Shown here: one piece after another, positions 33,603 to 50,988 of the stretch
Layout: each line of letters begins with the position of its first letter
How positions within the stretch are numbered: position 1 is the first letter of the stretch
Assembly (NCBI GenBank): GCA_030145055.1
Contig: JAQYWK010000004.1
Coordinates: 572,701 to 636,700 of the forward strand
Length of the DNA: 64,000 nucleotides
Source: Desulfovibrio sp.
GTDB lineage: Bacteria; Desulfobacterota; Desulfovibrionia; Desulfovibrionales; Desulfovibrionaceae
Reading direction: 5' to 3'
The notes under the pieces: model-generated
The model's database searches: none
Told to the model about the DNA's origin: nothing
The model's input: only the letters and a program-made list of their open reading frames with translations
Position numbers and translations under genes: made by a program

Positions 33603-33830
33603 CTAGTGCGAAATTTCACCCGATTTAATTATTGTATCGCTGGCTTTAGTTACCAAGTTGGTTACTGTTACCCGGTTGTAAAAGAGATCTTCAGGGTTAG
33701 CCTTTGAAAAGAGTTCTTTTAGTAGAACGTTGAGGAATAAGCTTTTATTAACATCTAGTTTTTTACAAGCATGCTCGATTTGCTCAATTATTTCTGGGTG
33801 TAAGTAAGCGTCTGAAAGTGATTTATGCAT
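33603..33830 (-). CDS. small protein, possibly ribbon-helix-helix-like
   Basis: 75 aa, DAYLHPEIIEQIEHACKKLDVNKSLFLNVLLKELF; own terminator and upstream inverted repeats; RHH assignment weak. Confidence 0.6.
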   Translation of the reverse strand: MHKSLSDAYLHPEIIEQIEHACKKLDVNKSLFLNVLLKELFSKANPEDLFYNRVTVTNLVTKASDTIIKSGEISH

Positions 33831-33838
33831 TTGTCTCC

Positions 33839-33870
33839 TAGTATTTTAAATACTAATTTTTGTAATTAGT
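33839..33870. repeat. two overlapping inverted repeats, candidate operator
   Basis: TAGTATTT-T-AAATACTA (33839-33855) and ACTAATT-N5-AATTAGT (33852-33870) immediately upstream of the minus-strand gene. Confidence 0.6.
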
Positions 33871-34040
33871 TTTCAGATCATTATTAATCTTCCGCCCTAA
33901 TTACCTGTCTTAATATTTATAATATAATACGCTTATCGTAAAAAGTACAGGGGGTATCGCAATATTAACGGTTCTGTCGCATAATAAACGCTTACTAGAA
34001 TGTCATATCTGGTGGATGTGCAAGGCTGGATTGATCTGTT

Positions 34041-34092
34041 TGCACAAAAGTGCAATGTATTTGTGCATTTATATGTGCACTCAGAGGTGTGC
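34041..34092. promoter_or_regulatory. cluster of GTGCA-type sites, candidate enhancer/activator sites
   Basis: TGCAC-AAAA-GTGCA (34041-34054), GTGCA at 34063 and 34075 (GTGCAC palindrome), GTGTGC at ~34087. Confidence 0.5.
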
Positions 34093-34141
34093 TTCTTGAG
34101 TGGATTTAAGTAAGGTGTTGTATTAATTCTGTTTAATACTT

Positions 34142-34157
34142 TGGCACGCTTGATGCT
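34142..34157 (+). promoter_or_regulatory. putative sigma-54 (-24/-12) promoter
   Basis: TGGCACGCTTGATGCT: GG-N10-GC spacing, TGGCAC match. Confidence 0.6.
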
Positions 34158-34167
34158 ATATGCTTAT

Positions 34168-34305
34168 TAACCTGAGCGAGACAGCCTCAACCCCCAAAGT
34201 CGATTGTCTCAAGCTCGAAAAATATATACAGTCTTCATTCCTTCTTATCACTCCTTAAGCACGTAAGGCCGGGATCCCTCCATCCCGGCCTTTCGTGCGT
34301 CTAGT
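34168..34305 (+). ncRNA. candidate small structured RNA (alternatively a very short ORF transcript)
   Basis: downstream of sigma-54-like promoter; stem GAGCGAGACA (34174-34183)/TGTCTC-AA-GCTC (34205-34216); ends in terminator hairpin. Confidence 0.5.
34259..34300. terminator. strong hairpin terminator
   Basis: GCACG-T-AAGGCCGGGAT / CCCTCC loop / ATCCCGGCCTT-T-CGTGC, 17-bp stem with one mismatch. Confidence 0.85.
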
Positions 34306-34321
34306 GCTTTTTCGTAGGAGT

Positions 34322-35206
34322 TTACTTTCTTCCAGTTTGCTGAACAATATTACCACCAACTATAAATAGTAGGCCAAACATTGTTGACGGTAGAATCTCT
34401 TCGCCCAATATAAAATGAATGAGTATCAGTGATAGAAATGGGGACAGGAATATTAAATTGCTGATTTTGGCGGTTTTTTCAGTTAATTTTAGGGCTTTCA
34501 GCCATAGTACAAAGGTTATACCCATTTCAAATAATCCGACATACGCGGCGGACAGAACTGCGGGGAGTTCTGTTGGCGGTGGTCCTGAAAACATTAGCAT
34601 TGCGGCTGTTACAAGAGGCAGTCCGAGGCAAAAATTTAGAAAAAGCTCAATTAGCGGATCTGCTTTGCTTTTGGTGTTGTAAATCCAGTATAATGCCCAG
34701 ATTATTGTGCTGAAAAGAGCTAAGAATACACCAAGGCCGCTACTGAATTGGATATCAAGCAGATTGCCGTGAGTTGAGATTACAACAACGCCTAGGTAGC
34801 TGATGAATATTGCAATAAGTTCGCGTGCATTAAGCTTTTGCCCTAGAAGCGGGATAGAAAGCAGGGACAGGGTAATTGCCCATGTGTAATTAAGTGGCTG
34901 TGCTTCCTGAGCCGGAAGCAAGTCGTATGCTTTGAAGAGTACTATATAGTATAGGAAGGGATTTAAAATTCCGGGCAGACCGCATTTGAGTATTTGATCA
35001 ATACTCATTTTTGCGATCTGCCCGGTTTTATTTTGAGTTATCAATATAACTAAGAGAGTCAGTGTCGAGAATACCACCGCGTAAAAGAGCAATTGCAATG
35101 GGTCCATGTAAGACAGTGCAATTTTAAACGCGGATGCAACTGTAGACCAGATTAATACTGCGGAAAAACCGTATATATATGCTTTTTTTTGGTCAGTTGG
35201 TTGCAA
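34322..35206 (-). CDS. EamA/DMT family transporter
   Basis: ~10 TM, SAVLIWSTVASAFKIALSYMDPLQLLFY. Confidence 0.88.
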   Translation of the reverse strand: MQPTDQKKAYIYGFSAVLIWSTVASAFKIALSYMDPLQLLFYAVVFSTLTLLVILITQNKTGQIAKMSIDQILKCGLPGILNPFLYYIVLFKAYDLLPAQEAQPLNYTWAITLSLLSIPLLGQKLNARELIAIFISYLGVVVISTHGNLLDIQFSSGLGVFLALFSTIIWALYWIYNTKSKADPLIELFLNFCLGLPLVTAAMLMFSGPPPTELPAVLSAAYVGLFEMGITFVLWLKALKLTEKTAKISNLIFLSPFLSLILIHFILGEEILPSTMFGLLFIVGGNIVQQTGRK

Positions 35207-50519: not shown

Positions 50520-50683
50520 TTTATCCTTTTTTATTAAGGGTGGGTGTATGTCTTTTCTATGTTATGATGTTTCGATTAGCAGTACCAATAAACGATTTTT
50601 TTTAAAATAGGAATTGTCAACCTGCATCGTTCTAATGTTGATCACACCATTGACAGCAGGTGCGATCAAGAATATCAATTTTT

Positions 50684-50862
50684 TCAGTGGTGCTCTTATG
50701 AGCTTAAAAGGGAATCCTGTTTAAATCAGGAACGGACCCGCCGCCGTGAGTCCTATATAATTGAACCCCGTAGCCGATTTTAATCAGGCTTAGCGTGTCA
50801 CTGAAATTTCATTTCGGGAAGGCCGGGTAAGATGGGACAAGTCGGAAGACCTGCCAACACTG
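50684..50862 (+). promoter_or_regulatory. cobalamin riboswitch
   Basis: AAAAGGGAATCCTG...CCGCCGCCGTGAG...GTCACTG...CGGGAAGG...AAGTCGGAAGACCTGCC (B12-box-like at 50840-50855). Confidence 0.88.
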
Positions 50863-50988
50863 AATATATGCTATGCTTTGATAGATAACGGGGCTTTTAT
50901 CTGTCGAAAAATCCGTATAACTACGCGTGCTTTGCGTGTGTAGGAACGGGCTGTTTTATTTTAAGCCCCCAAATAAATGGAGACTGTT

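Follow-up and report, generated by a model that had tools for sequence, protein, structure and literature searches.

The analysed window, a stretch of 64,000 nucleotides from a Desulfovibrio sp. genome of 3.9 Mb, contains an intergenic stretch (33831-34321) flanked by two minus-strand genes, a divergent one of 75 codons (33603-33830) and a convergent one for an EamA-type transporter (34322-35206). In silico analysis of this stretch revealed a predicted transcription unit at 34018-34312, common to 17/17 genomes of the genus. The 75-residue product of the divergent gene stays beside the RNA across the genus. Its sequence pattern suggests a ribbon-helix-helix DNA-binding protein; no significant Pfam match was found for it, and its structure model is of low confidence, with Foldseek matches to CopG/Arc-type repressors that are not significant. 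The RNA as a leader of the downstream gene was ruled out where checked, the downstream neighbour being convergent. Further upstream (12147-33081) the window carries an exopolysaccharide cluster with a VPLPA-CTERM exosortase (XrtD, TIGR04152, score above the cut-off) and PEP-CTERM-type partners, namely an ATPase, a tyrosine autokinase, a chain-length protein and a PrsT-like TPR protein. Part of this cluster adjoins the RNA in several relatives; a tie between the two was rejected, as G001 keeps the RNA and has no such cluster in the approximately 10 kb examined on each side. Rfam covariance models run over the window matched only a cobalamin riboswitch (50671-50872, plus strand), located 5' of a cobalt chelatase-like gene and an iron/cobalamin-type ABC transporter (names as read from the sequence), and gave nothing for the predicted RNA.

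The promoter of the unit (34142-34157, plus strand) reads TGGCACGCTTGATGCT (TGGCAC-GCTTG-ATGCT), and the sigma-54 GG-N10-GC geometry that the first-pass annotation had recognised at 34142 is borne out. This -24/-12 element is the sole match to TGGCAC-N6-TGCW in the 64-kb window, where 0.25 would be expected by chance; it is kept in all relatives, with the GG and GC invariant in 17/17 genomes, and the rpoN gene is present in the genome. The upstream activator array (34018-34080, plus strand), situated about 90-150 bp 5' of the predicted RNA start, is composed of GTGCA/TGCAC half-sites at 34018, 34041, 34050, 34063 and 34075. It is kept in 17/17 genomes and moves as one block relative to the promoter. 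A cluster of such elements had earlier been placed at 34041-34092; the array is present, but it begins slightly before that, at 34018. The second and third half-sites (34041, 34050) together form the palindromic operator TTGCACAAAAGTGCAA (34040-34055, no strand), of the form TTGCAC-N4-GTGCAA with the core TGCA-N6-TGCA, which the palindrome counts in 17 genomes (below) mark as a putative ZraR site. The palindrome has a single occurrence in this whole genome.

The predicted small RNA of about 145 nt (34168-34312, plus strand), with its start placed 24 bp downstream of the GG and its end at the T-run, folds into two hairpins, connected by a linker that is predicted to be unpaired, with an energy of -46 kcal/mol (z = -5.9 relative to shuffled sequences). 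The 5' hairpin (34173-34217, plus strand) shows compensatory changes in the outer and the inner stem; the stem already seen in the first-pass annotation, GAGCGAGACA...TGTCTC-AA-GCTC, is predicted at 34174-34216. The apical loop (34186-34195, plus strand) contains the first CU-rich patch, CTCAACCCCC here and UUCCCCUGC in the other clade (CCCCC or UUCCCCU in RNA letters), predicted 65-100% unpaired. The second patch (UUCAUUCC...AUCACUCCUU) belongs to the nearly invariant linker (34227-34258, plus strand), which reads UUCAUUCCUCAUCAUCACUCCUU in most genomes (UUCC...ACUCCUU in RNA letters) and is predicted 49-94% unpaired, mostly above 70%. The terminator hairpin (34259-34298, plus strand), in which 7 pairs have changes on both sides, had been described as 17 bp long; the hairpin is there, but it is made of 16 bp plus one T-T mismatch and not of a perfect 17 bp. 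Its loop CCCTCC (34276-34281, plus strand) is the third patch, with CCTCCA (CCUCCA) invariant. In this species the terminator T-run (34308-34312, plus strand) lies about 10 nt past the hairpin, which counts against the explanation favoured here.

Searched with a 281-bp query, 14 of the other 16 genomes of the genus yielded the locus; those of the remaining two, G009 and G015, were recovered via the operator palindrome, and the promoter and RNA are present there as well. Hardly any change is seen in the array, in the -24/-12 element, in the linker or in the terminator loop. The array-promoter spacer and the letters of the stems, by contrast, vary, and such a patchy pattern, read from the alignment, is as expected for a regulatory RNA. 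With its promoter, array, stems and linker all retained in 17/17 genomes, the unit is conserved far beyond chance. A covariance model for the RNA, built from 14 genomes of the genus, scores 100-158 bits in 17/17 genomes. Among 288 genomes of the family it finds the full RNA in 17 only, all of this genus, and elsewhere weak, mostly terminator-like matches; an exact-pattern scan of 84,980 genomes, in which records near the window were possibly left out, gave only 4 unrelated matches. In a plain MAFFT alignment 10 of 20 pairs have both partners changed and the paired fraction of cells is 90.5%, whereas sliding the partners gives at most 55%. The model-fitted alignment of the 17 genomes, a type that leans towards its own structure, has 16 of 28 pairs changed on both sides and 91.2% paired. 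The covariation score was reached by none of 500 shuffles in either alignment. Compensatory changes, which the first-pass annotation had proposed to look for with a covariance model, are thus found in both hairpins; it had also named a lack of conservation of the -24/-12 element and stems in relatives as evidence against its reading, and both are conserved. As far as comparison can tell, the element is a conserved non-coding structured RNA with a terminator and represents a new family of predicted sRNAs, very probably expressed from the sigma-54 promoter.

The operator connects the RNA to a second locus. The perfect TTGCAC-N4-GTGCAA occurs at 20 sites in the 17 genomes (reversed-pattern control: 0), of which 16 are at the RNA, 1 before zraP (G002) and 3 before an FtrD-like/MacB-FtsX operon; in G012, the sole genome without a perfect copy, the RNA has the one-letter variant TTGCACATAAGTGCAG. 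In this genome zraP, a DUF4405 gene, a histidine kinase gene and a gene for a GAFTGA sigma-54 response regulator form one cluster, and the order zraP-DUF4405-kinase is conserved in 16 genomes. The regulator beside zraP and the kinase possesses receiver, GAFTGA AAA+ and Fis-type DNA-binding domains (G002 ortholog; the G000 protein is 75% identical). The zraP promoter of this genome consists of the array TGCACTTGTGCAAATCTTGTGCAGACTTCTGCAC followed by TGGCACGCATACTGC, and the core common to the RNA array and the zraP array is TGCA-N6-TGCA. The search for the GTGCA array before other sigma-54 promoters, also proposed at the outset, leads to zraP-DUF4405-zraS-zraR and points to ZraR as the activator.

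Other genera, which do not have the full RNA, provided an independent test: 12 of their zra loci were fetched. Eight of them (L218, L219, L220, L222, L223, L224, L226 and L228; 8 genomes, 7 other genera) have a sigma-54 promoter near the kinase gene, with TGCA-N6-TGCA and additional half-sites just upstream. Since the operator accompanies zra loci in genera without the RNA, it goes together with zraSR, and the ZraR regulon is most likely older than the RNA, which would have joined it later. From the recurrence of the operator core at zra loci, membership of the RNA in the ZraR envelope-stress regulon is the most likely reading; the shared sites make its control by ZraR highly probable. The wider pattern GTGCA-N6-TGCAC alone is not specific, having many matches without a sigma-54 promoter and matches in reversed-pattern controls as well. 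Two such sites, 159 bp apart (L122; G000 C2:55554 and 55713), have no recognisable sigma-54 promoter nearby.

Other genes carry the same signals. In G016, G003 and G010 the perfect palindrome precedes an operon for an FtrD-like protein, a MacB/FtsX permease and an ATPase (L044 2253-4517), which sits between a radical-SAM gene and zraP and is a probable extra ZraR target. A small membrane protein, SHOCT-like by a reading of its sequence only, is preceded by the core and a sigma-54 promoter in G011 and G007 and is likewise a probable regulon member. The 5' leader of zraP, GAGAGGGCAACAAC(A/T)TTTAAC (L053-L068), located 5' of the ribosome-binding site, shows strong conservation throughout the genus. 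The 3'UTR of a zraP paralog (L069-L075; G003, G007, G010, G011, G013, G015, G016) contains recurrent CU-rich motifs, e.g. CATCATCCCCTGC and ACACTCCTTCCCC, before a terminator. CpxQ is derived from cpxP, and in parallel the paralog 3'UTR possibly yields a 3'UTR-derived sRNA.

The mode of action may be approached through the three CU-rich patches (5' loop, linker, terminator loop), which are predicted to be mostly unpaired. The 3' end of 16S rRNA is AUCACCUCCUU, and AUCACUCCUU in the linker resembles it. In Gram-negative bacteria, most of the sRNAs that are understood depend on Hfq or ProQ. Hfq (PF17209) was not found in 17/17 genomes of the genus, with positive controls, and ProQ was not found in this genome. 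The absence of both proteins, together with the exposed CU-rich patches, suggests helper-independent pairing with Shine-Dalgarno regions, and we infer, with somewhat better than even confidence, that the RNA pairs with Shine-Dalgarno sequences. No gene start was hit recurrently by 19-mers complementary to the linker, whose long complements were found repeatedly only within a single coding sequence, in four genomes. Duplex energies against the gene starts at hand singled out no gene. The zraP leader (GAGAGGGCAACAAC) was rejected as a target of the 5' loop, as its match was not distinctive in comparison with other gene starts.

Comparison shows a conserved unit with its promoter, an operator in common with the zra locus, a structured and non-coding RNA and the lack of Hfq; transcription, binding by ZraR, the pairing mechanism and the targets are what we infer, in the following sequential order. 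Envelope stress would activate ZraS, and phosphorylated ZraR, a sigma-54 activator, would bind the TGCA-N6-TGCA array at 34018-34080 and cause sigma-54 polymerase to open the promoter (34142-34157). The resulting RNA, about 145 nt long and running from near 34168 to near 34312, would fold into two hairpins with three exposed CU-rich patches. These patches would pair, without Hfq or ProQ, with Shine-Dalgarno regions, thereby lowering the translation of target mRNAs, probably for envelope proteins.

The coding alternative raised by the first-pass annotation, a 32-residue microprotein encoded at 34160-34258, is highly improbable. The frame is open in this genome, as stated there, and in G005 and G006 to the same TAA, but it is not open in most relatives: a one-base insertion shifts the frame and an early stop is present in the closest relative G012, early stops occur in G014 and G008, and clade B has no ATG. 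The best-conserved block, the linker, falls in different frames in different species, and ATG 34160 sits upstream of the predicted RNA start. Since frameshifts or stops interrupt it in the closest relative and in the majority of the others, the frame is not conserved and the micro-ORF was rejected; the annotation's main reading as an sRNA holds, its promoter, upstream sites and both stems being conserved. There is as little to expect from the minus strand, on which the conserved block would act as a leader or gene start. The reverse complement of the linker (AAGGAGTGATGATG...) resembles AAGGAG-N-ATG, i.e. a ribosome-binding site and a start; however, inspection of the aligned sequences revealed no shared reading frame after the block, and the sigma-54 promoter and the activator array are oriented to the plus strand.

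Two further alternatives accept the RNA and concern its action or its activator. GlmY is under sigma-54 control. It is a precedent for a decoy sRNA (PMC7073468), and the RNA described here might similarly be a decoy or sponge, for an sRNA or an RNA-binding protein, instead of pairing with ribosome-binding sites of mRNAs. The conserved stretch of the linker, about 31 nt, exceeds the length of a usual seed, and the searches turned up no conserved mRNA target; yet CU-richness and complementarity to Shine-Dalgarno sequences are shared by the three exposed patches, in line with pairing to mRNA, and no partner RNA is known, so that a decoy is considered unlikely. Slightly less probable still is an RNA that is real and sigma-54-dependent but activated by another enhancer-binding protein with a similar TGCA site, ZraR being uninvolved or only cross-binding. 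Desulfovibrio species have dozens of enhancer-binding proteins, some with similar motifs (PMC4641369), outside the core the RNA array is spaced differently from that of zraP, and the same core is also found before SHOCT-like and cache-type genes. Against this, the core accompanies zra operons in other genera, and in the 17 genomes the perfect palindrome is found only at the RNA and the zra locus. The preferred reading, with a probability of roughly three in four, is a stand-alone regulatory sRNA of the ZraS-ZraR (envelope/metal stress) regulon whose CU-rich patches would block Shine-Dalgarno regions.

To our knowledge, ZraSR regulons have been described as small and made of proteins. What is new here is the regulator assignment, which most likely places an sRNA in the ZraR envelope-stress regulon. 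An sRNA wired to ZraR in a genus devoid of Hfq would offer a simple system for the study of base-pairing RNAs without helpers, and it would give a likely envelope-stress role to sRNA control in relatives of Desulfovibrio, where sigma-54 sRNAs are known and their functions are not. At somewhat less than even odds, the ZraSR system of the genus may have an RNA arm: an sRNA independent of Hfq and ProQ, with three redundant anti-Shine-Dalgarno patches, which would lower envelope-protein synthesis and would have arisen independently of Listeria LhrC and of the sigma-E/Cpx sRNAs, with the zraP-paralog 3'UTR perhaps giving a second RNA.

The ZraP-ZraS-ZraR system of E. coli shares with the present one an autoregulated sigma-54 response regulator, the periplasmic chaperone ZraP and a role in envelope stress. 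The direct targets reported for E. coli ZraR are zraP, zraSR and mgtA in one study (PMC7657598) and, in vitro, zraP/zraSR alone in another (PMC8249747), where a ChIP-seq study with 25 more targets is cited; the parts of these two articles that were available mention no sRNA among the targets. In the open-licence subset of the literature no sRNA under ZraR was found. Among related bacteria, D. vulgaris Hildenborough has sigma-54-dependent ncRNAs under four regulators, DVU0653, DVU0679, DVU1419 and DVU2359 (PMC4641369, PMC3333781), which are similar, in a comparison by description only, in their sigma-54 promoters and dedicated activators. The likely counterpart of ZraR there is DVU3381, whose targets are DVU3382-3381 and DVU3384, with a role in envelope stress, and under which no ncRNA is listed (PMC4641369, PMC3333781).

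The predicted control of the RNA resembles that of the Qrr RNAs of Vibrio (LuxO), which are also stand-alone sRNAs with a sigma-54 promoter and palindromic activator sites of the TGCA type. Qrr RNAs use Hfq, whereas Hfq is absent in this genus. The LuxO site is TTGCA-N3-TGCAA (PMC10162802), while the spacer here is 6 (TGCA-N6-TGCA) and not 3; the array does not match the LuxO site, and there is no sequence relation to Qrr. LhrC of Listeria monocytogenes pairs with Shine-Dalgarno regions independently of helpers (PMC4132741) and, like the RNA described here, is CU-rich in a hairpin loop, a single-stranded stretch and the terminator loop, a likeness of design and not of descent. There is no sequence relation (no Rfam covariance match in the window), and in contrast to LhrC, the RNA is single copy and belongs to a Gram-negative host. 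LhrC is controlled by LisR, whereas the control here would be by sigma-54 and a ZraR-type regulator. By the tests made, the RNA is a member of neither group, although its design recalls LhrC and its predicted control recalls Qrr; its redundant CU-rich design, if confirmed, would represent a case of convergence with LhrC of Listeria.
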